NCBI GenBank assembly: GCA_023247085.1
Contig: JAHFHC010000027.1
Coordinates: 1-10,979 of the forward strand
Length of the DNA: 10,979 bases
Source of the DNA: Microcaldota archaeon
GTDB lineage: Archaea; Micrarchaeota; Micrarchaeia; Norongarragalinales; UBA8480
Direction of reading: 5' to 3'
Within the stretch, counting starts at the first letter, position 1. Every line of letters starts with the position of its first letter. Made by a program: the position numbers and the translations under genes. Shown piece by piece: positions 1 through 10,979 of this stretch. A model generated the notes under the pieces. That model made no database searches. It worked only from the letters and a program-made list of their open reading frames with translations, and had not been told where the DNA came from.

Positions 1-180
1 AATCCAAGTGGATTCGAATGTTTGTTTTGGTGACGTGAAGCTGTTAAGTAGGAAACAATTTGGTTATAGAGAAGCCACCAAAAGTAAAATTCTTAGAAGT
101 TAAAAGATTTCTTTGGAGAGATATACTATGCAAATAGTTGTTTTGAAAAAAAATCTTCTTTTAAGTTCATACTAGTTTTT
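1..180 (+). other. 23S rRNA upstream leader, no gene recognised
   Basis: No coding region and no 16S rRNA 3' end or spacer tRNA can be seen directly upstream of the 23S gene. Two foldable elements are visible. One is a perfect small hairpin at 1-14 (AATCC, loop AAGT, GGATT). The other is an 8-bp pairing of 25-32 (TTTTGGTG) with 76-83 (CACCAAAA), enclosing 43 nt. These could be the tail of an upstream RNA or transcript, or part of an unlinked rRNA leader. No box C/D or tRNA signature could be confirmed. An archaeal 23S without an adjacent 16S is compatible with DPANN-like unlinked rRNA genes, but the window edge prevents certainty. Confidence 0.4.
113..128 (+). promoter_or_regulatory. possible archaeal TATA/BRE promoter of the 23S transcript
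   Basis: The run GGAGAGATATACTA holds a TATA-like core (ATATACTA, 121-128) preceded by a purine-rich BRE-like stretch. An archaeal TATA box lies about 25 nt before the start site, so transcription would begin near 150. That would include the processing-stem arm starting at 182. The element is weak and was judged by eye; a promoter outside the window would serve equally well. Confidence 0.3.
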
Positions 181-181
181 G

Positions 182-210
182 GCGAAAAAAAATAAGTGCT
201 ACTTGTTTTT
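182..210 (+). other. 5' arm of the pre-23S rRNA processing stem
   Basis: This arm is the near-perfect reverse complement of 4760-4788, just past the 3' end of the gene. GCG (182-184) pairs with CGC (4786-4788). A run of A (186-192) pairs with a run of T (4779-4785). TAAGTGCTACTT (193-204) pairs with AAGTAGCGCTTA (4767-4778) with one G-U pair. The T-run 206-210 can continue against the A-run 4760-4764. Stems that enclose the whole rRNA are the standard archaeal precursor structure, usually carrying a BHB cut by the splicing endonuclease. I did not find a clean 3-4-3 BHB inside this one. Confidence 0.85.
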
Positions 211-2161
211 CGACGCCATTTAGTGAATGGTTAGGCTTGAGTAGCGATGAAAGACGCGGCAAGCTGCGAAAAGCCACGGGTAGCCGCATGCAGGCATTGA
301 ACCGTGGGTATCTGAATAGATCCGAAAGGATTGCGTACTTCCTGAATTGAAATATCTTAGTAGGGAGAGGAAAATAAATCAAATCGAGATTCTGTTATTA
401 GTGCGAACGAAAGCAGAATAGTGCAAACTGAATTCGCCCCGCAAGGAGGCGTAGATGTGGTGTTTGGCCTCGTTTTTAACACTCAAATATCTTAGCTGAA
501 GAGAACTGGAAAGTTCCGTGCTACAAGGTGATAGCCCTGTAAGCGTAGGTGTTTGAGGTGTACGAGTGTCCCGAGTAGCGTTTCCTGGTTTGGAAGCGCG
601 AACGCGCGAGTATTAACTTGCAACGCTAAATATAACTCAAGACCGATAGTGAATTAAGTACCGAGAGGGAAAACTGAAAAGAACCCCGAAAGGGGAGTTC
701 AAAGTGCCTGAAACTAAATGGTAACAATAAGGCGCGGCGTGAAAGGATCTCCGCAAGGAGAACCAGCGTTGCGCCCTACTTCTCGAAGCAAGAGCCAAGG
801 AGTTCACGAGAGTGGCGAGTACTATACGTAGGGAAACCAACGTCTCCGCAACACCTGCAAAGGTGCCAGGGAGAGGGTCTTAACCGGCCATTAGTCACTA
901 TTGTGAGACCTGAAGCCCATGCGATCTATGCCCGAGTAAGACGAAGCCGACCTACAGGTTGGTGGAGGTCTGCAACCGTTTCTGGTTTATCCGATCGGGT
1001 GACTCGGGTTTAGGGATGAAAGTTCATTCGAGCTGGGCATTAGCAGGTTCCTTCCGAAGTGTCCCGCAGGACAGCCTCGTTGGAGCCGAACACTAGGTAG
1101 AGCGACCGATCAGAAGGAAAGGGGAGTAAAATCCTCACCGTCTTGTCGAACTCCGAAGCTAGCGTTGGCATAGAAGACGAGAGTTGGGATGTACGAGGTA
1201 AGCGCGTACTCCTGGAGGGGAACGACCCCTACTACAGTTAAGGTCCCAAAGACTGGCTAAGTGTAAACAAAAGGTGTTTTGATTCTCAGACAGTGGAGAG
1301 GTAGGCTCAGAAGCAGCCATCCTTTAAACAACGCGTAACAGCGGATCCATCAAGAATCGAAGCGCTGCAAACTATCGGGACTAAAGCCAGTTACCGATAC
1401 TGTGGAACTACAGCGACAACTGTAGATTTGGTAGGAGGGCGTACTGTTCGGGCCGAAGCTCGTTCGTGAGGACGAGTGGACTGAATAGTAATGAATATCT
1501 TGGTATTAGTAGCATCAATTTGGAGCGAGAATCTCCAACGTCGGAAGGGCACGGGTTTCTTGGCAACGCTAGTCGACCAAGAGTAAGCCGATCCTAACGC
1601 TACACGTAACGGTGATTTAAAGCGGAAAGGGAAACACGTTAATATTCGTGTGCCGTACAGCAGCATGTGGCAACACTAGCTTGTATTAGACGCTTGCGGA
1701 TAAGTTTAGCGCATTGATTCCTTAGTGCGTTTAACCAGCATAGGACAGAGAAGTCTTGTTATGAGGAGCATCTGTTCAAGATGGGAAAAATAAACTTAAT
1801 CCATGAGCCCCTGAAAACAATACAAGAAGCGCGCTGTGCGATCGTACCTAGAACCAGTACAGGTGCCCCTGGCAGAGAAAGCCAAGACGTGGCAGGAAAA
1901 CCAAAGCAAGGGAACTCGGCAAGCTAGCCCCGTAACTTCGGGAGAAGGGGTGCCTACATTTTTTTCTGAGATTATATCAAAGATGGACTTGTAGGTCGCA
2001 GTAACAAGGGGACGTCGACTGTTTATCAAAAACACAGCTCTCCGCAAGATGGAAACGTTTTGTACGGAGGGTGACGCCTGCTCACTGGCAGTATCTGAAG
2101 TTGGGTTTCAACCCAGCGAAGGACTGCTAAAGAGCGGGTCTAACTCTGAGACTCTTAAGGT

Positions 2162-2870
2162 AAAATTACGATTTGCCTTATCAAAATCGGGCTATATGCT
2201 GGAAAATCTGGAGTATCTCAAACTATCACTGGCAATGACGTGTTGCACTTTGTTTAAAAAGCAAAGATCAGATACGTAGCTGTGATAACAATGTTATGAG
2301 CGCAGACAATCAGCAGGAAAGACTAGATGCAGAGTGGATTGTTGGATTCGTCGACGGAGAAGGATGTTTTCATGTAAGCTTAAACAAGCTAGAGAAAATG
2401 TCCACCGGTTGGACGGTTCTTCCTGAATTTAGAGTGGTGCAGCATCAACGTGATGAGCAAGTGCTTTACAGAATCAAAAAATATTTTGGTTTTGGAATAG
2501 TAACCGTTAATCATGGTGATCGAAAAGAATTTCGAGTACGTGGTTTGAAAAATTTGAATTTAATCGTTCAATTTTTTAAACAGTATCCATTGCAAACTTC
2601 CAAACAAAAAAATTTGGAAAAATTTGCAGAAGTTTTATCGATCATAGACGCAAAGCAACACCTAACAAAGGAAGGACTTGATAAAATCGCTGAAATAATT
2701 TCAACGATGAATCGGAAACCAATTCCACAGTATTTAGAATCCTCAGAGACTATACGCCTGACAGCTGAAAAAAAGCTGAAGATATAGTCCGACCTGCATA
2801 GCGATATGCAGAAGCCAACAGAAATGTTTTGGCTCCGCGAGTTTTTTTAAAATCGCGAGTAACAAACGTG
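2162..2870 (+). mobile_element. group I intron at 23S position 1931, with endonuclease gene
   Basis: The intron is 709 nt, starts after a U and ends in G, as group I introns do. P1 is exact: exon TTAAGGT (2155-2161) against intron GCCTTA (2175-2180), with the U-G wobble at the splice site. P10 is ATTACG (2165-2170) with 3'-exon CGTAAT (2873-2878). P3 is TCGGGC (2187-2192) with GCCTGA (2756-2761). P4 is TGCTGG (2197-2202) with TCAGCA (2310-2315). P5 includes GTATCT (2213-2218) with AGATAC (2270-2275). P6 is AGGA (2315-2318) with TCCT (2740-2743). P7 is GACTATA (2748-2754) with TATAGTC (2783-2789). P8 is CAGCT (2762-2766) with AGCTG (2774-2778). P9-type hairpins lie at 2794-2811, 2813-2834 and 2836-2857. 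The S box AAGATATAGTCC is textbook. The endonuclease gene sits in the P6 loop. Group I introns occupy the same site in Thermotoga 23S, and archaeal group I introns have been described. Confidence 0.93.
2296..2787 (+). CDS. LAGLIDADG homing endonuclease (one motif), encoded in the group I intron
   Basis: This 163-residue protein has one LAGLIDADG motif near its N-terminus, WIVGFVDGEGCF (residues 14-25), with the expected catalytic acid at E22 followed by a beta-strand-like stretch. One-motif enzymes of this size (I-CreI also has 163 residues) act as homodimers. They cut intron-less copies of the gene so that the intron is copied in, and some also help the intron fold (maturase). The frame starts at ATG 2296, inside the ribozyme core between the P4 strands. 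Its first codons encode the 3' strand of P4 and the 5' strand of P6. Its last 13 or so codons encode P6', P7, P3' and P8, and the TAG stop lies inside the S box. No Shine-Dalgarno sequence is seen. The frame is intact, so the enzyme may be active. The target would be the joined exon sequence around 2150-2161/2871-2885. Confidence 0.9.
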   Translation: MSADNQQERLDAEWIVGFVDGEGCFHVSLNKLEKMSTGWTVLPEFRVVQHQRDEQVLYRIKKYFGFGIVTVNHGDRKEFRVRGLKNLNLIVQFFKQYPLQTSKQKNLEKFAEVLSIIDAKQHLTKEGLDKIAEIISTMNRKPIPQYLESSETIRLTAEKKLKI

Positions 2871-3388
2871 AGCGTAATACCTCGCCGCTTAATTGGCGGC
2901 TCGCATGAATGGCGTAACGAGCGTCCCACTGTCCCTGCTTTGGACCTGGTGAACTTACTACCCGGTGTACATGCCGGGAACTTCTAGGGGGAAACGAAGA
3001 CCCCATGGAGCTTAACTATAGCCTGTAGTTGATTCACGGTTGAAGCTGCAAAGCGTAAACAGGAGCCGTTATGCCGTACCTTCTGGGGTGCGGATAGGCG
3101 AAAGTGTGACACTGTTCTGTTTTGACTGCGAGTCTTACTTCTCCTTGTTTGGAGAAAGACAACTACAGGTGGATAGTTTGACTGGGGCGGTACGCCTTCG
3201 AAAAAATAACAAAGGCGCCTAATGGTCAGCTCAAGCGGGTTAGAAATCCGCTGTAGAGGGTTAAAGACAAATGCTGGCCTGACTGTGTTCTTAACAAAAT
3301 GGAACGCAGACACGAAAGTGGGGCTTAACGAACAAAGGTATCTCCGTTAATGGGAGTCCTTTCTGACAGACAAGCTACCCTGGGGGTA

Positions 3389-4073
3389 ATTTCGTTTTCA
3401 ATCCGTAAAATCATCGGCAACGACGTGTTGCTCAAAACTTTAAATGCTGTGCTTGCTTTGCAACTATATGAATCCAGATTTCGCTTATTTACTAGGCGCA
3501 TTTGGCGATGGTTGCTTATACATAAATAAAGCAAGAGGCGAGTACTGCATTGAGTACGAGCAAAAAGTAGCAGTTTGGCTTACTAACTCAATTTTGCCTA
3601 GATTTCAAAAAGTCTACGGTAAAAGTCCACGAGTTAAACAACGCAAAGCAAAAGGCGAACTTTATCGAATACGCGTATATTCCAAGCAAGCTTTTTTTGA
3701 AATAAAAGAAGCTATGCAAAATCTATCCATTCTCTTGCAAGAAGATCTCCAAGTGAAAGCATTTTTCATAAGGGGATTTTTTGACGCAGAGGGAAGTGTT
3801 CCAGCCAGAAGGCCAGGAACATCTCGTATAGAATTGAAATATACCAAAAAGATACGTCGAAACTTGCGCTAATAGCGCAGATGCTCGAAGACGACTTTGG
3901 AATAGTTTCTAATAAATTAACTAATTCCAGAAACGTTGGCCAATTGAACATACGCACTGTGCAAAACATTGCACGTTTTCGTAGTCGCATTGGTTCAGAG
4001 CATCCAGCAAAATTCAAAGCTTTAAATGAATTGTTTTAATATGCTGGTGATGGATTGAAACTGAGAACCTTAT
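3389..4073 (+). mobile_element. BHB (archaeal-type) intron between 23S A2450 and A2451
   Basis: The 685-nt intron shows a canonical 3-4-3 bulge-helix-bulge. Outer exon helix: CCTG (3379-3382) with CAGG (4075-4078). Central helix: GGGG (3383-3386) with CCTT (4068-4071), including two G-U pairs. Bulges: TAA (3387-3389) and ATA (4072-4074). Cleavage after the second base of each bulge joins GGGGGTA to ACAGG, which restores the conserved peptidyl-transferase sequence. The inner helix starts with TTT (3390-3392) against GAA (4065-4067). After a small irregular loop it continues as a perfect 9-bp stem, TTTCAATCC (3396-3404) with GGATTGAAA (4052-4060). Such introns are removed by the archaeal tRNA splicing endonuclease and joined by RtcB ligase (established for the class). 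No group I core or terminal G is present. The intron carries a broken LAGLIDADG gene. Confidence 0.9.
3444..4039 (+). pseudogene. I-DmoI-like LAGLIDADG homing endonuclease (two motifs), frameshifted
   Basis: The first frame (3444-3872) contains motif 1, YLLGAFGDGCLYI (residues 15-27, acid D22), and motif 2, FIRGFFDAEGSV (residues 108-119, acid E116). These positions closely match the D21/E117 pair of I-DmoI from an archaeal 23S intron. After about residue 126 the frame leaves the family pattern and stops early. The rest of the second domain continues in the -1 frame from about 3830 to the TAA at 4037-4039, beginning RIEIYQKD and ending KALNELF. Together the parts give about 198 residues, the size of a full enzyme. 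A single missing base between about 3800 and 3832 explains this. No slippery heptamer is seen, so programmed frameshifting is unlikely; sequencing error remains possible. The start could be 3444 or 3468 (MNPDFAYLLG). The enzyme is probably inactive, as expected of an intron that is fixed in its host. Confidence 0.87.
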
Positions 4074-4100
4074 ACAGGCTCGTCGCGCCCGAGAGTTCAT
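4074..4100 (+). other. 27-nt micro-exon of 23S rRNA (E. coli 2451-2477)
   Basis: This exon runs from the peptidyl-transferase adenosine A2451 to U2477, including the 5' strand of helix 89 (CGCGCC, 4084-4089, which pairs with GGCGCG, 4355-4360, after intron 3). Its length equals the E. coli interval exactly. It is flanked on both sides by BHB introns, so both must be removed and ligated correctly to rebuild the catalytic centre. Confidence 0.88.
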
Positions 4101-4348
4101 TTTTCATGAACGATCGGGGAAACCACGAGTTCAAGTCTTCGTTTCTTCTTTTCGAAAAGTTGCACTAGTTGCAACTACTAAAAGTGGTTTTCTCTAGTGT
4201 TAACTTTAGGAGGAGTAGAAACGCAGAACTTGAACCTAATATAATCGTGGTATCTTCGTTCGTCTCCAAAAAACTCGGAATCGTAAAAATTCTGCAGTTT
4301 ATTTGGGAAAAAAAGCATCGTAAAAAATGCTTTTTTTTGATAGAATAT
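4101..4348 (+). mobile_element. ORF-less BHB intron after 23S position 2477
   Basis: The 248-nt intron interrupts helix 89. A 3-4-3 BHB can be drawn. The central helix is exon GTTC (4095-4098) with intron GAAT (4343-4346), one G-U. The bulges are ATT (4099-4101) and ATA (4347-4349), cut after the second base, giving GAGTTCAT joined to ATCGACGG exactly as in other 23S genes. The outer side has AG (4093-4094) with TC (4350-4351), then tandem G-A mismatches, then the helix 89 stem. Inside is a long rod: ACCACGA (4122-4128) with TCGTGGT (4245-4251), GTTCAAG (4129-4135) with CTTGAAC (4229-4235), and CGTTTCT (4140-4146) with AGAAACG (4217-4223). It is capped by the hairpin 4158-4164/4170-4176. An 11-bp hairpin (4308-4318 with 4327-4337) ends in a run of eight T. 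No plausible protein is encoded. Confidence 0.82.
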
Positions 4349-4759
4349 ATCGACGGCGCGGTTTGGTACATCGCTATCGGCTCGACTTATCCTGGTGGTG
4401 CAGGAGCCACCAAGGGTTGGGTTGTTCATCCATTAAAAAGTCACGTTAGTTGGGTTCAGAACGTCGCGAGACAGTTCGGTGGCATCTCCTAGAAGTGCAT
4501 TGCTGGCTGAGGGTAAGACTCCCTAAGTACGAGAGGAACGGGGAATCGGCGCCGCTAGTTAAGCTGTTGTCAAAAGGATTCAAATGGCACGCAGCATAGC
4601 CACGCGCTCTTCGAATAAGTCCTGAAAGCATCTAAGGACGAAGTCGGTCCCAAAACGAGCCAGCTTAGACCGCCCATAGCAGATGGGTTTGATAGAACTG
4701 AAGTGTAAACCAGGAGCTTCGGCGACTGGCGAGCTAACAGTAACTAAAGGTCAAATCTA

Positions 4760-4788
4760 AAAAACTAAGTAGCGCTTATTTTTTTCGC
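4760..4788 (+). other. 3' arm of the pre-23S processing stem
   Basis: This arm pairs with 182-210 as described for the 5' arm. It contains a run of seven T (4779-4785), followed by further T-rich sequence (4791-4794). Archaeal RNA polymerase stops at such runs, so the arm could also lie at or just before the transcript end. The cut that frees the mature 3' end must lie between about 4753 and 4788. Confidence 0.82.
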
Positions 4789-5011
4789 TATTTTGCTAAT
4801 AACAAGTGGCTTTTCACCATAACTCAAAATTGTTTCAAACTTAACAGCTCGTTAACACCCAAAAAAAGTGTCGGCTTTCTAAAACCTATTTTTTTAGATT
4901 TTATAAAAAGTTAGTTAGCGCGAGCTCTGTCGTGTAGTTAGCCGTTCGTGGATTGCAGCTGCGATTTTCTGGTGCCTCCTAATATTTAAAATTTATGGTA
5001 AAATGTAGGCA
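4789..5011. other. convergent spacer between 23S rRNA and the Nudix gene
   Basis: The spacer separates the plus-strand rRNA from the minus-strand Nudix gene. It holds no recognisable gene, 5S rRNA or complete tRNA. A stretch at about 4918-4970 looks faintly like a tRNA D-arm but lacks a T-arm. The A/T-rich runs in the middle look like terminators for both directions: A7 at 4861-4867 (T7 on the minus strand) between ACAC and GTGT, and the hairpin at 4878-4898. Confidence 0.6.
4878..4898. terminator. possible hairpin/oligo-T terminator in the convergent spacer
   Basis: TCTAAAA (4878-4884) pairs with TTTTAGA (4892-4898) around a T-rich loop, and more T follows (4899-4902). The symmetric A/T composition could end transcription from either side: the rRNA from the left and the Nudix transcript from the right. 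Archaeal termination depends mainly on the T-run, so the hairpin may be incidental. Confidence 0.4.
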
Positions 5012-5584
5012 CTAGGTTTTGTGCTTTTCTAAATATTTTTCCGCCATTAGCAGCGCAGCGATTGACGTAGCGTATTGTAATTTGCGTTTTTTAATTAACG
5101 CTGGAACGTCTTTAAATTTTGTGCGTATTACTTTCAACTCTTCAGGCTCATCGCCTTGAAGTTTGCTTGGAACCAAGTTTGTACCTAAGTAAATTTCAGT
5201 AGAGTGAGTTGAGTAACCTGGCGCAGTTTCAACTGTGCCCAAGTGCACTAATTTTTTTGGTAAATATCCTATTTCTTCTTGGCACTCGCGCTTCGCTGCT
5301 TGTAAAGCTGTTTCGCCTTTGTCAACTAATCCAGTTGGGCACATGACTTCGCGTTTGTTTACGCCAGTGCAATAGAGTTCAATTAATAAAATTCTTCCAT
5401 TTTTATCAACTGGCACTATAACTACGCTTCTTCTACCGTTGCCAGTTGCAGAGTCCATGTACTCGTGCTTTACTTTTTTTCCATTTGGAAACTGCAAACC
5501 TATTGAATGGATGGAAAACACTTTTCCCTTTGCGACGATTTTGTGGTTTAGGATATTTACCATGTGCGTATAAGAATAACCCAT
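5012..5584 (-). CDS. Nudix hydrolase, probable ADP-ribose/ADP-sugar pyrophosphatase
   Basis: This 190-residue soluble protein has a complete Nudix box at residues 85-107: G85, E91 and the R99-E100-x-x-E103-E104-x-G106 core, which binds the metal ions and catalyses pyrophosphate cleavage. The segment TAPGYSTHSTEIYL (120-133) downstream, and the LQGDEPEEL stretch (142-150), resemble ADP-ribose pyrophosphatases and NudE-type ADP-compound hydrolases. The likely reaction is nucleoside-diphosphate-X to nucleoside monophosphate plus phospho-X, in the cytoplasm. Such enzymes clear ADP-ribose and related dinucleotides; the exact substrate is inference. The start at 5584 (MGYSYTH) has no Shine-Dalgarno sequence, and M8 at 5563 is an equally good alternative. 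The gene lies 74 nt downstream of scpA, with no obvious functional link. Confidence 0.9.
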   Translation of the reverse strand: MGYSYTHMVNILNHKIVAKGKVFSIHSIGLQFPNGKKVKHEYMDSATGNGRRSVVIVPVDKNGRILLIELYCTGVNKREVMCPTGLVDKGETALQAAKRECQEEIGYLPKKLVHLGTVETAPGYSTHSTEIYLGTNLVPSKLQGDEPEELKVIRTKFKDVPALIKKRKLQYATSIAALLMAEKYLEKHKT

Positions 5585-5624
5585 TTGTGTTTATCTTGTT
5601 ACCGTTGTATTTGCTACACTATGA

Positions 5625-5640
5625 GTATTAAAGAAATAAA
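5625..5640 (-). promoter_or_regulatory. weak TATA-like element upstream of the Nudix gene
   Basis: On the minus strand the 74-nt gap after scpA contains TTTATTTCTTTAATAC, an A/T-rich TATA-like stretch 40-55 nt before the ATG at 5584. It would give a short leader. The match is poor, and co-transcription with scpA is equally possible. Confidence 0.25.
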
Positions 5641-5658
5641 GATTAGCGTCTAAATTAG

Positions 5659-6369
5659 TTACAATATTTTTATTTTGATTTCGCCGTATGTTTGTTCTTG
5701 CCAAATGTCTGCTTTTCTTTCTTGCACTAGATGTAGTAGTGGCATTAGCCTGCTTGCAACGTGGCCGTTTTTGTCTTTGTTTAGCGAATTAGGGTCAAGT
5801 AATAAAGAAAATGCAAGTACTCCGTCTTTATCTTTTAATTCATTTGCCAATAAGTATAGTTTTTTTATTAATTCATGCAAGTCTTCTTTTGGCAATTGAA
5901 GTTCAAGTATTTTTGGTGCAATTGTAAGTAGTTGCTGTGTGGTTGTTGAACTGATTACGTCGTCAACTGCTTTGACTAATTCTTCTAGTGTAACTTTGCG
6001 TGAACGTGCATTGTTCGTGCGTAGTATTAATTGTGGAATTTCTTCTGGGATTAATTCGCGCGGCATAGGCTCTTCTAGTTGAAAGTCCTCTTCAAATTTA
6101 TCTTCAAGTGACAGCGCATCGGCTTTAAAACGTAAGAGTAAACTAGTTGCGAGTATGACATTAGCTGGTAAACGTAAGTCAACTGCTGCAAGTTCTTTTA
6201 CTTTTTGTAAGTACTTATCTGCAATTACGCCGATGTCTAAGTCCCAGGGGTTCATTTGGTTTGAATTTACTAAGTCAAGTAATACTTCGCGCCACGTTGG
6301 TTCTAAAACTAGTGTTTCCAAATCTAAATTAGAGGAGGTTACTTGTAATTGGGTGGTCTCGTCTTCCAT
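5659..6369 (-). CDS. scpA: ScpA, kleisin subunit of the SMC chromosome condensation complex
   Basis: This 236-residue protein matches the archaeal and bacterial ScpA family. The N-terminal domain, which binds the SMC neck, includes the hallmark NPWDLDI (residues 40-46) and the helical segment ILATSLLLRFKADAL (72-86). An acidic linker follows (about 88-112). The C-terminal winged helix carries LMPLLHLVQ (208-216) and a QEQTYGEIKI ending (224-233) and would contact the SMC head. ScpA bridges an SMC dimer into a ring that compacts and helps segregate the chromosome. No smc or scpB gene is in the window. The ATG at 6369 fits the family N-terminus; no strong Shine-Dalgarno sequence is seen. The 73-nt gap upstream holds a good TATA box, so the gene probably has its own promoter. 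Confidence 0.92.
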   Translation of the reverse strand: MEDETTQLQVTSSNLDLETLVLEPTWREVLLDLVNSNQMNPWDLDIGVIADKYLQKVKELAAVDLRLPANVILATSLLLRFKADALSLEDKFEEDFQLEEPMPRELIPEEIPQLILRTNNARSRKVTLEELVKAVDDVISSTTTQQLLTIAPKILELQLPKEDLHELIKKLYLLANELKDKDGVLAFSLLLDPNSLNKDKNGHVASRLMPLLHLVQERKADIWQEQTYGEIKIKIL

Positions 6370-6423
6370 CTTTTAAATTCTCTCAGTGGGGGGCGCCAAT
6401 AGGCAAAATACTTACTTTTTCGG

Positions 6424-6434
6424 TATATATAAAA
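6424..6434 (-). promoter_or_regulatory. TATA box of scpA
   Basis: On the minus strand the sequence reads TTTTATATATA, a strong archaeal TATA match. It starts about nine bases after the stop codon of the large secreted-protein gene. A start site about 25 nt on would lie near 6403, leaving a leader of roughly 30-35 nt before the scpA ATG at 6369. This argues for separate transcription of scpA. Confidence 0.65.
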
Positions 6435-6442
6435 CCTTTAGT

Positions 6443-9400
6443 TTATTGCTTCGGCCTTTTTTGTTTTTTTATCCTAATTGCTGTGACTGCGGCAATCGTT
6501 GCGAGAATTGCGAGTATCAGTGCGGGTAATTCAGTTGGCCATCCGGGTAGTGATGCAAATCCATTTGACCCGCTTATGCGTTTGTTGGTTGGTAGCAGTA
6601 AATTGCTGCCCGGGTTTCCCATGAAGTTTCCATTTGAGTCTCGGCTAAGCCGTTCGCCGTCAGTTGCAAACCGTGGATTCATTGCCAGGTCTTGTCCATT
6701 TAACCCATATAATTGACCGGTTTGAGGGTCGTATACTAGTATTCCGCCTGTTCCTTTTGCTTTTAGCAGTTCTTCAAGTCCTTTTAATTCATCTGGTCCG
6801 CTGTATGATAATTGTGGTTGGCCATTTTCTCCCATACCGATGTTGAATTTGAAGTCGCCTTTGTCAGTTGGTATAACGATGTCGTTTCCTTCGCGGCGCA
6901 GTGGGCCAGTGATTGGATAATCGTGTATTTCGCCGGTTTGTTTGTCAATCACTCTTAATATGGGGTTACCGTTCGCATCTTTAGTGATCATAAATTGTTT
7001 TGTAGGCGTGTCTAAAATGTGCATTCCGCTGCAACCTTGAATTGCGTCAAGTGCAGATTGTAATTCCGCAGCTGCTGCATCTCCTACTCCGGCGTGTCCT
7101 TCTACGCGTGTTATTTTTATTCCAGGTAAACCGTCCGAGCAATCATTGCGCTGTACTGGCGCAGTGCCGAATCCTTGAATTAAACCTGCGTCAACTTGTG
7201 CTAAAGTGTGTATGAATATTTGTACTTCGCCATTTGCCAAATAGTTTATTTTTCCACGTTCAGTTAAAATTGAACGTAGTTCGCCAGCATTCGCTGCTTC
7301 TGGAGAATCCGAGTGAATATATCCTTGCAATGTTACTCTCCCGTCGCTTGTTACGTCAATTGCAGCTGCTTGCTTGTAATTTTCTTCTTGAGAAGAAGTA
7401 GCTTTTTGCATTACTTCGTTGCCTGGGCTGCGTAGTTCAAATTCATCCTTAACTGCGGAATTGCGGCTAAATATAATTACGCCGTTGCTGAAGTCAAGCG
7501 AACCATCAGTGGTATATACTTGTGTCACTCGGCCGAGTACGCTGGTCAAATCACTTCCAATTTGCCTGCCAGTTGCATATTGTATTTGACTGCGGATACA
7601 ACTTGCGCCAGCACATGTTGCACCAGCTGCTAGTGTTATGCTTTGCTTTGCATCCATCTCTAAAACGTTTCCAGCACAACCCGCAAACGAGGCAGTTACG
7701 TATTTATTCGGAATTAATGTAAGCGCTAAATTGTTCATTTGCTTGTGGTTTAGTGAACGGTCGCTATTTGCTATTTGAGTGCATACTCCCGTTTTTTTAT
7801 CGCATAGCCTAACGCCGTCCTTATCAAATTCAGCTGCTTTGTTATCCGAGTCAAGCACTTTTCTCAATGGACACATGTTCGGCTGCTGGCTTGTAGCAGC
7901 AAAATCAGTTGGAATCCATTCTCTAGTTGCATCTTTGAGTTGCAAGTAATAAATTTTATCAACAACTAAATGCGAAGCTTGATTTTCCAATTCTCCGCGT
8001 AAATTAACATATTCGCGTAATCTAGTTGTGTCAACAGGTTGGCCAACTCCGCTTATTGCCTTGCCTAAATTTAAGTTGCTTAAAACGTCATTTGAACTAA
8101 CTGACTTTAATTTTTCAGTTAATTCTCCGCTAGTTTTGTGCTTCAAGCTTTGATATGCTAAAATGGTGTAATGGTCGTCCTTGCAATTAGATGCGTATTG
8201 AAGTGCTTCTGAAGCAAAGTGACCTTGCACTAGCGTAGTTGGAGAAAGCGCGCCACTGATTAACGTTACTGTCTTTTCTAACTTAGGCCAATAACCTATT
8301 TTTCTCATAATTGTCACTGCACTTGTAGTTGCCCCTTTTTTCACTTCGAATACGGTTTTAGCTATGGGCAGCCACCCTACTAATTGATTTGCAGCTGTTG
8401 CAGCAATGTATTTGTTAATGTTGCTATCGACAACTTTTGGATCACATTTTTCATCTGGTTTAGTCTGAGCCGGATTAATAGCTTCTCTAATATAAAAGTC
8501 ATAAACTACTAGTCGAACTGCGGTTAGTGACGCGTCGCTTAACCCACTTAATTTCCACGAAATAAGTGGCGCTATTAAATTAAGTGCAGCATAAAACCCT
8601 TGGAATTCTTTACGCGCTTTTATTTTAAGTGACCAACTTGCATCTTTCACTTCAATTGGCAACCGGGCATATTCGTCTTTAGAACTAAGTTGCTCGGCTA
8701 TCAGTATGTCTGATTTTCCTTTCCAACTAGATTCGATTTTTGTTTGTCCATTTTGTGTTCTAAAACTAGTTATTGAATTAGCTCCGGTTCCAGGCGCTCC
8801 TTCAAGTGGTTGGTTAGCAATCCATAAGTTACCAACTTGATACGCTGCGCTTGGAATGCCCTCATCAGTAAAATCAGATAAAGCATCAGTAACCGTTCCT
8901 GCAGAAACCCAGTCAGTTGCCCGCCTGAATTCACCGATTAAATCATTGTTATTGGCAAAAACCGTTATGTAATTATCTGCATATTGCTTTTGGCTTATGC
9001 GCTGGAAAGTAATAGCATCGGTGATTTCAAATACAAATCGCCCTGGCCCAAGCCAACCCATTCCTAATACTAGCCGGTACCAAACCTCTCCTGTACGCGC
9101 AGCCAGTAGTTTTTTGATTTTATTCAAGTCAGCCGTGTACTCTTGCCCTGCAAGTTCGTTCAATGTTTTCGTTGAATCAATTTCAAGCCGGCTTCTAACT
9201 TGTGCTTTTGTAACCTCTGCAGACTCTAATGCATCAAATCCTCCAGTAGTTTTTGTAAAGTCAGCTTCGTATTTTCTATAAATGCTGCTTACATCAGCAG
9301 CAGGCGCAGCAGTTGTTGGTATCTCGCTCCTTACTTTTTCAATTGCCGCATAACGTGATGCAAATTCCGACGAACTTGTTTTTAGCGCAGGTATATCTGC

Positions 9401-10495
9401 GATTGTAAGGTGGTGTGCACTTCCAGCTGGGGTGAATTCTTCAAGCAACCCGTTTTCTATTTTTGTTAAACTACTTTCCAATTGAGATTTGCTTATAGTG
9501 GGTGCGCTTCCAAGCCCGTATATCTCTCTTTTTAGAGGCGTGCTAGTAACACGGCTAAATGTAATTGAGTCTGGAGCAAATTGTTGTTTTCTTGTTTCAA
9601 TTTCTTTTAACTTCTCTTGCGCGCTTGTTAATGTACCGACTTTTCCAAAGAAGAAACCCATTTGGGCAACTGTCAACCACGTGTCTAGACTAACCCATGT
9701 TTTTAACCGCTTTACTGTTTCTTCATACTGCTTTGGCAAAACTAATGTAGATGCGCCTTGCAAGTCTAAGTCATTAACCGCATCAGTTGAACCTATTCCG
9801 TTTTGAACCCCTTTTAAATTTGGCGCGCCGCTATACGCAACGGTTACATCTTTAGAAAGCGAACCGACGTATGAAACTTTTCCGGTTATGTGTTGGCTAT
9901 CAAGCAAACAAGCGGCATTTGGATTATCTGGTGCAGTTGAATCTTGAAGTGCAGAAAGTGGAATCTCTCCACCTGCGTTTGTACGAAGTTTATAGCCCTC
10001 AAAAGCAGGATTTTCTTCACTTGGCGAACCCTTTAATTGCGAAAGTAAATCAGCCACGCCAGCGTCATTCTTAAAACGTTTAGCAATATCGCGCGCTTCA
10101 GCATCAGTTATACGGTCAGTTGGCTTTTTGTTCAAATACGCGGCAGCGGCTTTTTTCTGTTCTTCATCAAAACCCATTAACGTAGTTGCAGTATCTAGCG
10201 GGTATACTCCTTCTGTTTTACTGCCGATGAATATATTGTTAACCACTTGAGATGGCTTGTTTTGAATCTCTTCATTGCCACTTAACCCATTTACTTGGTC
10301 GCCCCTAAAGCCCTGAACTTGTTGCCAGAAGAACATCGTTTGTTCAGGCGTCATTTCATTTAATTCACAAATGCCGCGAACATCAAACGGCGAGCTTGGC
10401 GTAGCTGTATTGGTTAAAGCAAATGTAAATGGCGCAAATAATTCAACTACAAACGCCATTAGTAAGAAAATGCTGGTTTTACGTCGGTAATCCAT
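6443..10495 (-). CDS. very large secreted, C-terminally anchored protein of unknown function
   Basis: I do not recognise this 1350-residue protein. Residues 1-26 form a signal peptide: a charged start (DYRRK), a hydrophobic core (SIFLLMAFVVELFAPF) and a likely cut after TFA. The C-terminus carries LPGWP (1316-1320), one hydrophobic helix (about 1323-1340) and a basic tail (RIKKQKRPKQ). The bulk would therefore face outward, held by a single membrane anchor. Residues 30-650 look mainly alpha-helical and polar, with charged helices such as that near 295-305. Hydrophobic or amphipathic stretches occur near 475-490 and 630-650. About a dozen cysteines are spread along the chain and denser at 680-960 and 1118-1160 (for example CDKKTGVC near 898-905 and CAGASC near 957-962), suggesting disulfides. 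The 1160-1310 part is rich in D-x-N/G-x-G turns and beta strands (DANGNPILRVIDKQTGEIHDY). A surface, adhesion or envelope role is only inference. The ATG at 10495 is fixed by the signal peptide. Confidence 0.9.
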   Translation of the reverse strand: MDYRRKTSIFLLMAFVVELFAPFTFALTNTATPSSPFDVRGICELNEMTPEQTMFFWQQVQGFRGDQVNGLSGNEEIQNKPSQVVNNIFIGSKTEGVYPLDTATTLMGFDEEQKKAAAAYLNKKPTDRITDAEARDIAKRFKNDAGVADLLSQLKGSPSEENPAFEGYKLRTNAGGEIPLSALQDSTAPDNPNAACLLDSQHITGKVSYVGSLSKDVTVAYSGAPNLKGVQNGIGSTDAVNDLDLQGASTLVLPKQYEETVKRLKTWVSLDTWLTVAQMGFFFGKVGTLTSAQEKLKEIETRKQQFAPDSITFSRVTSTPLKREIYGLGSAPTISKSQLESSLTKIENGLLEEFTPAGSAHHLTIADIPALKTSSSEFASRYAAIEKVRSEIPTTAAPAADVSSIYRKYEADFTKTTGGFDALESAEVTKAQVRSRLEIDSTKTLNELAGQEYTADLNKIKKLLAARTGEVWYRLVLGMGWLGPGRFVFEITDAITFQRISQKQYADNYITVFANNNDLIGEFRRATDWVSAGTVTDALSDFTDEGIPSAAYQVGNLWIANQPLEGAPGTGANSITSFRTQNGQTKIESSWKGKSDILIAEQLSSKDEYARLPIEVKDASWSLKIKARKEFQGFYAALNLIAPLISWKLSGLSDASLTAVRLVVYDFYIREAINPAQTKPDEKCDPKVVDSNINKYIAATAANQLVGWLPIAKTVFEVKKGATTSAVTIMRKIGYWPKLEKTVTLISGALSPTTLVQGHFASEALQYASNCKDDHYTILAYQSLKHKTSGELTEKLKSVSSNDVLSNLNLGKAISGVGQPVDTTRLREYVNLRGELENQASHLVVDKIYYLQLKDATREWIPTDFAATSQQPNMCPLRKVLDSDNKAAEFDKDGVRLCDKKTGVCTQIANSDRSLNHKQMNNLALTLIPNKYVTASFAGCAGNVLEMDAKQSITLAAGATCAGASCIRSQIQYATGRQIGSDLTSVLGRVTQVYTTDGSLDFSNGVIIFSRNSAVKDEFELRSPGNEVMQKATSSQEENYKQAAAIDVTSDGRVTLQGYIHSDSPEAANAGELRSILTERGKINYLANGEVQIFIHTLAQVDAGLIQGFGTAPVQRNDCSDGLPGIKITRVEGHAGVGDAAAAELQSALDAIQGCSGMHILDTPTKQFMITKDANGNPILRVIDKQTGEIHDYPITGPLRREGNDIVIPTDKGDFKFNIGMGENGQPQLSYSGPDELKGLEELLKAKGTGGILVYDPQTGQLYGLNGQDLAMNPRFATDGERLSRDSNGNFMGNPGSNLLLPTNKRISGSNGFASLPGWPTELPALILAILATIAAVTAIRIKKQKRPKQ

Positions 10496-10530
10496 AGTAG
10501 TTCTTCAACTAAATAACAAGGCGTTTTTGC

Positions 10531-10540
10531 TTTTTAAACC
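10531..10540 (-). promoter_or_regulatory. probable TATA box of the large secreted-protein gene
   Basis: On the minus strand GGTTTAAAAA lies about 40 nt before the ATG at 10495, in a 111-nt gap. The expected start site would leave a leader of roughly 15 nt. The match is good for an archaeal TATA, but the assignment is by eye. Confidence 0.45.
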
Positions 10541-10606
10541 AAAGGGACGCACAAAAGCAAGGCGAAAAATCAGCGTAGCGCAATACACTTGACGGCGTTA
10601 TCCAGT

Positions 10607-10882
10607 TCAAGGTGTTGAAAAAACTTGTGGTAAAGTATAGCCAAGGTAAAATTCAATTATAACAACTGTAACTAATGTTGCTAGAAAAGTGCAAATCAAC
10701 ATCCATAGTATCTTTGGCGTTTTAGCGTGCCTTTTTTCTAAATAGTCATACACAAACGAAAATACAACTACAAGCGGAAATGCAAGTAGGCTCACAATCA
10801 AAGAGAAGAGCAAAACGAACCACGCTTGAGTTAAGAATGCCGAAACGTCCACCATAATAGTTGTCTTACGCTTTTCCAACAT
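10607..10882 (-). CDS. small two-helix membrane protein of unknown function
   Basis: This 91-residue protein begins with a basic N-terminus (LEKRK). A first hydrophobic helix covers about residues 19-45 and a second about 58-82, separated by a basic loop (LEKRHAKTPK, 48-57). By the positive-inside rule the N-terminus would be outside or shielded and the basic loop cytoplasmic; the basic N-terminus makes the topology ambiguous. A stop codon directly before ATG 10882 excludes a longer form; M10 is a possible later start. No family is recognised. It lies upstream of the giant secreted protein on the same strand, so a link to envelope function is possible but unproven. Confidence 0.7.
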   Translation of the reverse strand: MLEKRKTTIMVDVSAFLTQAWFVLLFSLIVSLLAFPLVVVFSFVYDYLEKRHAKTPKILWMLICTFLATLVTVVIIEFYLGYTLPQVFSTP

Positions 10883-10903
10883 TTAAACTAACCGCTTTTT
10901 GTT

Positions 10904-10911
10904 ACCTCCTC
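10904..10911 (-). promoter_or_regulatory. Shine-Dalgarno-like GAGGAGGT at unusual spacing
   Basis: On the minus strand GAGGAGGT is a perfect anti-16S match, but it ends 21 nt before the only usable ATG (10882), much farther than the normal 5-10 nt. No ATG, GTG or TTG lies at a normal distance. It may be fortuitous, or act through a folded leader. The rest of 10883-10979 shows only A/T-rich promoter-like sequence. Confidence 0.35.
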
Positions 10912-10979
10912 TTTTCCCGCGAGTCTTCGCTACTCTTTTATTGCACTTCTGTATTGTAACTATCGGTATACTGTATGCT

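Follow-up and report, generated by a model that had tools for sequence, protein, structure and literature searches.

Predicted group I and bulge-helix-bulge introns at three sites of one archaeal 23S rRNA gene

The only large subunit (LSU) rRNA gene found in an archaeal metagenome-assembled genome (MAG; 892,562 bases in 36 contigs, 92% complete; Microcaldota archaeon of the order Norongarragalinales, GenBank GCA_023247085.1) lies in contig JAHFHC010000027.1, positions 1 to 10,979 of which were analyzed here (the window, 10,979 nucleotides), and is interrupted by three large insertions. We conclude, with a probability of about 0.93, that the LSU precursor loses these three insertions as introns by two unrelated routes, one of them being that of group I introns (intron 1) and the other that of bulge-helix-bulge (BHB) introns (introns 2 and 3). 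A first-pass annotation, made from the letters of the window, had proposed that both classes coexist in this 23S gene, and the comparative tests described below bear it out.

The match to RF02540, the archaeal LSU rRNA model, extends over positions 199-4766 with 2098 bits, and the exons cover the whole model. The ends of the insertions were set by alignment to an intronless LSU gene of the same order (locus L023; L016 was set aside, as it has an insertion of its own near 2472) and to the E. coli 23S gene rrlB, which provides the numbering used for the sites (L1931, L2450/2451 and L2477). Removal of intron 1 restores the consensus join CUUAAGGU↓AGCGUAAU at L1931, that of intron 2 restores GGGGGUA↓ACAGGCUCG at L2450/2451, and that of intron 3 restores GAGAGUUCAU↓AUCGACGG at L2477, where the arrow marks the splice site. 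The predicted joins are thus U1931↓A1932, A2450↓A2451 and U2477↓A2478, and all three reproduce the universally conserved rRNA sequence exactly. The resulting layout is as follows.

199..2161, + strand: LSU rRNA exon 1, from the 5' end to U1931 (RF02540 match; alignment to the intronless LSU and E. coli rrlB)
2162..2870, + strand: intron 1 at L1931, group I by prediction, 709 nt, with terminal G (RF00028 match; core common to 11 sequences)
2871..3388, + strand: LSU rRNA exon 2, A1932 to A2450 (RF02540; LSU alignment)
3389..4073, + strand: intron 2, putative BHB intron between A2450 and A2451, 685 nt (exon join; BHB test with L061, L065, L015 and L029)
4074..4100, + strand: LSU rRNA exon 3, just 27 nt, from A2451 to the loop of helix 89 (H89) (LSU alignment; BHB test)
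4101..4348, + strand: intron 3 at L2477, putative BHB intron, 248 nt, strongly self-structured, with no homing endonuclease gene (BHB test with 8 homologues; fold z-score)
4349..4766, + strand: LSU rRNA exon 4 (RF02540; LSU alignment)

An inverted repeat brackets the LSU gene, at about 180-205 (GCGAAAAAAAAUAAGUGCUACUU) and 4764-4786 (AAGUAGCGCUUAUUUUUUUCGC), as judged by eye; it is likely to form the processing stem of the pre-23S RNA.

Intron 1 is, on the strength of its sequence and of a core that it shares with other introns at the same site, a group I intron. The first-pass annotation had listed P1 with its U.G pair, P3, P4, P6, P7, P8 and a terminal G, and all of these elements were found. 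The elements of the intron are located as follows.

2156..2180, + strand: P1, formed by the 5' exon UAAGGU (2156-2161) and the internal guide sequence GCCUUA (2175-2180), with U.G at the 5' splice site (sequence; paired in 11 of 11 homologues)
2165-2170 and 2873-2878, + strand: possible P10, AUUACG with the 3' exon CGUAAU (by eye only)
2187..2327, + strand: 5' half of the core, with P3 5' (2187-2192), P4 5' (2197-2201), P5 (2207-2210/2303-2306), P4 3' (2311-2315) and P6 5' (2323-2327) (covariation counts)
2733..2811, + strand: 3' half of the core, with P6 3' (2733-2737), P7 5' (2748-2754), P3 3' (2756-2761), P8 (2762-2766/2774-2778), P7 3' (2783-2789) and P9 (2794-2799/2806-2811) (covariation counts; RF00028 alignment)
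2296..2787, + strand: intact gene within P6 for a single-motif LAGLIDADG homing endonuclease of 163 aa (PF00961; I-PanMI match)

In this core P3 is UCGGGC/GCCUGA and P7 is GACUAUA/UAUAGUC. The cores of 11 L1931 introns, two of them bacterial, were aligned after removal of the endonuclease gene. Pairing was observed in 95.2% of the cells of this alignment, compared to 82.1% in shuffles and 32-39% when the structure was slid along the sequences, and 28 of the 53 core pairs showed changes on both sides; 0 of 500 shuffles attained this. Each of the helices P1 and P3 to P9 was paired in 97-100% of cells (100% for P3, P4 and P5, 98% for P6, 97% for P7), with covariation in P3, P5, P6 and P7; P9.1 was weak, with 56% of cells paired. 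The terminal G is present in 14 of 15 L1931 introns, that of the window included. The Rfam group I search suggested by the first-pass annotation gave a mixed result, as RF00028 matched intron 1 at 2626-2811 with an E value of 4.6e-8, whereas its score of 38.1 bits did not reach the model's gathering score, 50.

For introns 2 and 3 the expected structure of a BHB junction was defined as two 3-nt bulges separated by a 4-bp helix (H), with the cut after the second base of each bulge and restoration of the consensus join. The exon join leaves just one or two registers in which the cuts could lie. H was taken to pair the 5' exon with the end of the intron, the established polarity, which fits both introns; the opposite polarity, with H formed by the intron start and the 3' exon, did not fit intron 2. 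The junction elements are the following.

3379..3389, + strand: 5' side of the intron 2 BHB, with outer helix h CCUG (3379-3382), H GGGG (3383-3386) and bulge UA↓A (3387-3389) (BHB test)
4068..4078, + strand: 3' side of the intron 2 BHB, with H CCUU (4068-4071), bulge AU↓A (4072-4074) and h CAGG (4075-4078) (BHB test)
3444..4039, + strand: frameshifted LAGLIDADG_3 homing endonuclease gene of intron 2 (PF14528; alignment to L065)
4095..4101, + strand: 5' side of the intron 3 BHB, with H GUUC (4095-4098) and bulge AU↓U (4099-4101) (BHB test)
4343..4349, + strand: 3' side of the intron 3 BHB, with H GAAU (4343-4346) and bulge AU↓A (4347-4349) (BHB test)

Both junctions therefore have the 3-4-3 form claimed for them by the first-pass annotation, with the consensus joins. 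At intron 2 the helices are h CCUG/CAGG and H GGGG/CCUU, in the register that leaves A2450↓A2451; when the window is taken together with its relatives L061, L065, L015 and L029, 18 of 20 H positions are paired, whereas other offsets average 11.5 of 20. At intron 3 the BHB falls at U2477↓A2478 with H GUUC/GAAU, and its outer helix consists of 2 bp beside the bulge followed by the H89 stem. In the nine introns at this site 33 of 36 H pairs are kept, against 13-21 in slid registers, and offset controls on the L2477 introns longer than 80 nt averaged 14.2 of 32 pairs. In a single sequence at a fixed register, a 4/4 match of H would arise by chance in about 5% of cases for intron 2 and 2% for intron 3, but the retention of these helices across homologues makes chance untenable. 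As the 5' strand of H is constant exon, the intron ends (GAAU, GAAC, GGAC and others) follow the exon. Applied to L1931 in 15 homologues, the same test found only 16 pairs out of 60, less than the chance level of 37.5%, which illustrates that it discriminates. RF00028 gave no match in introns 2 and 3 in a permissive search (E up to 10). The assignment of both as BHB introns is thus supported by sequence comparison. Other weak Rfam matches (miRNA and snoRNA families) had E values above 1 and were judged to be chance.

The fold of intron 3, which has no open reading frame, is a long hairpin of very high stability (-92.8 kcal/mol, z -10.6), and the excised intron is possibly a stable circular RNA.

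Both components of the BHB route were identified in the same genome. RtcB is encoded in contig C19 (PF01139, E 2.0e-172), and matches to PF01974 and PF02778 located EndA in contig C26, its two halves matching the epsilon2-type enzyme 4fz2 of Ca. Micrarchaeum acidiphilum ARMAN-2 (E 3.7e-82 and 8.5e-43). The EndA gene, around 3967-5039 of G000:C26, is split by a scaffold run of N and has a three-unit, epsilon2-like architecture. Thus, the EndA of this genome resembles that of ARMAN-2 over both halves, and differs from it in that the gene is broken by the run of N and the protein is predicted from sequence. EndA of the epsilon2 type is described as tolerating non-canonical bulges and varied BHB forms (PMC12397907), a property that, by analogy, would fit the imperfect junction of intron 3. 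The epsilon2-like EndA may also point to a Micrarchaeum-like host lineage.

From these structures and genes we infer self-splicing, cutting, ligation and homing as follows. Intron 1 would fold as a group I ribozyme and remove itself by two transesterifications, the process being started by guanosine, and the LAGLIDADG endonuclease encoded in its P6 loop would carry it into empty L1931 sites. The BHB junctions of introns 2 (L2450) and 3 (L2477) would be cut by the host EndA and the exons joined by RtcB.

Several points weigh against the removal of three introns by these two routes. The score of intron 1 lies below the RF00028 cut-off, plausibly because the LAGLIDADG gene splits P6; the L1931 homologues L017 (53.4 bits) and L061 (74.3 bits), which have no such gene, pass it. 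The junction of intron 3 is poorer than that of intron 2: its outer helix is short, its inner helix h' is marred by two U-U mismatches, and the BHB is missing from the minimum-energy structure that the region adopts when folded without constraints. Gaps in the 36-contig MAG could hide another LSU copy. Finally, splicing by either route is deduced from structure, and is to be read as a model.

Other explanations were weighed against the same evidence. Group I introns occupy L2449 in eukaryotes, and introns 2 and 3, which are near this region and one of which encodes a LAGLIDADG protein, might be degenerate members of that class. We regard this as highly improbable, since neither intron matched RF00028 at E values up to 10 or has a terminal G, the BHB helix is kept at its exact register, and a group I join after U2449 would give UACAGG instead of the conserved AACAGG, implying that only cuts at A2450 or A2451 restore the rRNA. 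The converse, that intron 1 is a BHB intron with a LAGLIDADG gene, like most archaeal rRNA introns, would suit an archaeal host, and genes of this kind can be carried by both classes; yet the BHB helix is absent at L1931, the group I core covaries, and bacterial L1931 introns have the same core and a related endonuclease without BHB machinery, so that this alternative is hardly credible.

It is also conceivable that the mature rRNA retains the insertions, or that the rRNA is fragmented without ligation in the manner of intervening sequences, as organisms with small genomes can have odd rRNA and intron removal is predicted here from sequence. An insertion between A2450 and A2451 would, however, break up the peptidyl transferase centre, the consensus is restored exactly at each of the three joins, the splice structures are conserved and RtcB is present, which makes this very unlikely. 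As for a pseudogene or an assembly chimera, with the working LSU gene elsewhere, the fragmentation and 92% completeness of the MAG leave some room for it, but the window holds the one LSU gene found, its exons span the whole archaeal model, and the independent genome G015 has introns at these three sites too; we give this explanation next to no weight. Loss of one group I and two BHB introns from the precursor is thus the reading that we retain.

The endonuclease of intron 1 carries the motif WIVGFVDGEG (PF00961, E 4.7e-28) and matches I-PanMI in PDB at 1.5e-48. Its frame begins at an ATG at 2296, inside the core, and ends at 2787, with the stop reported as lying in P8, so that protein and ribozyme share sequence and the gene ends overlap the ribozyme core. 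The protein shares 71-74% identity with its counterparts in L1931 introns from the same order, 54-67% with those of other archaea and 42-44% with those of bacteria. In the order, L1931 introns exist both without an endonuclease (L017, L022 and L061) and with one (L027 and L031), and their distribution is patchy within the family, the intron being present in L022 and absent from L024 and L064.

The endonuclease gene of intron 2 matched PF14528 with an E value of 6.6e-6 in its first frame and, more weakly, 5.4e-3 in the second. Compared to the intact homologue of L065, a net insertion of 2 nt near 3819-3820 disrupts it, and the copy of L061 is open; the frameshift may come from a sequencing or assembly error. 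Introns at L2450 that lack the gene were found in L015 and L029 (98 and 114 nt). A broken gene together with gene-free forms at the same site would be consistent with the cycle of gain, decay and loss that homing genes are known to go through.

Nawrocki, Jones and Eddy (2018; PMC6125680) described 39 archaeal group I introns, many of them at LSU/1931 and 21 with LAGLIDADG genes, counted Micrarchaeota among the LSU/1931 hosts, and showed that a single gene can hold introns of both the group I and the BHB class. The present case fits this description, IB4 being the subtype given for the published introns, and differs in coming from a further genome. The coexistence of both classes has therefore been in print since 2018 and is seen also in relatives of the same order, so that its description as rare in the first-pass annotation was overstated; the window is a sound further example. 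Among the genomes sampled, all three introns (group I at L1931, and those at L2450 and L2477) recur in the relative G015 (locus L061). In the 23S genes of bacteria of the Candidate Phyla Radiation (PMC11270868), position 1931 is likewise one of the sites at which a group I intron carries a LAGLIDADG_1 gene, and the endonuclease of the window is 42-44% identical to the proteins of three bacterial L1931 introns; on the other hand, the hosts there are bacteria and the introns are not accompanied by BHB introns. Archaeal BHB rRNA introns are excised by EndA, with RtcB ligating the exons. Introns 2 and 3 resemble them in the 3-4-3 BHB at both junctions and in the LAGLIDADG_3 gene of one of the two, and stand apart in their sites, the peptidyl transferase centre (L2450) and the H89 loop (L2477). 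The literature searched, which covered little of the older work, did not mention BHB introns at either of these sites. The gene adds a case, well supported by comparison, in which two unrelated splicing systems act, by prediction, on one rRNA, with the host EndA and RtcB genes identified and a relative that has the same introns. The old proposal that BHB introns arose from group I introns can thereby be put to the test, site by site, within a single order.

A broader view of the order can be put forward tentatively, at somewhat less than even odds. Its LSU gene could be a meeting ground for mobile introns of the group I and BHB classes, which would spread there alongside each other, those of the BHB class at uncatalogued sites (A2450/A2451, the H89 loop, and the sarcin-ricin loop, in which an exon of 5 nt would dictate the splicing order), and the catalytic core would be assembled post-transcriptionally from pieces down to 5-27 nt.

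In four LSU loci (L017, L020, L031 and L058) the sarcin-ricin loop (L2658-L2663) contains two adjacent BHB-type insertions, of 129-167 nt and 46-52 nt, between which a 5-nt exon, GAGAG, remains. The helix of the second intron, CGAG/CTCG, is paired 4/4 after the first has been spliced and 3/4 in the unspliced form, which implies that the order is obligate. Only the first of these introns is present in L032 and L062. Locus L062 (G009:C63), an LSU gene, holds far more insertions than any relative, about 18, with lengths of 43-359 nt; several of them open with a start similar to AATGACYTYTTTCT, hinting at a repeated intron family. The LSU genes L060 (G047:C29) and L063 (G013:C21) each have ten or more large insertions, including one of 776 nt near L1936 in L060 and one of 704 nt near L2252 in L063.

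Downstream of the LSU gene in the window, the minus strand encodes a NUDIX hydrolase and a ScpA-like segregation protein (5012-6369) and a protein of 1350 aa (6443-10495), without a Pfam match, which has an N-terminal signal-like segment and a C-terminal hydrophobic segment and is likely a surface protein.
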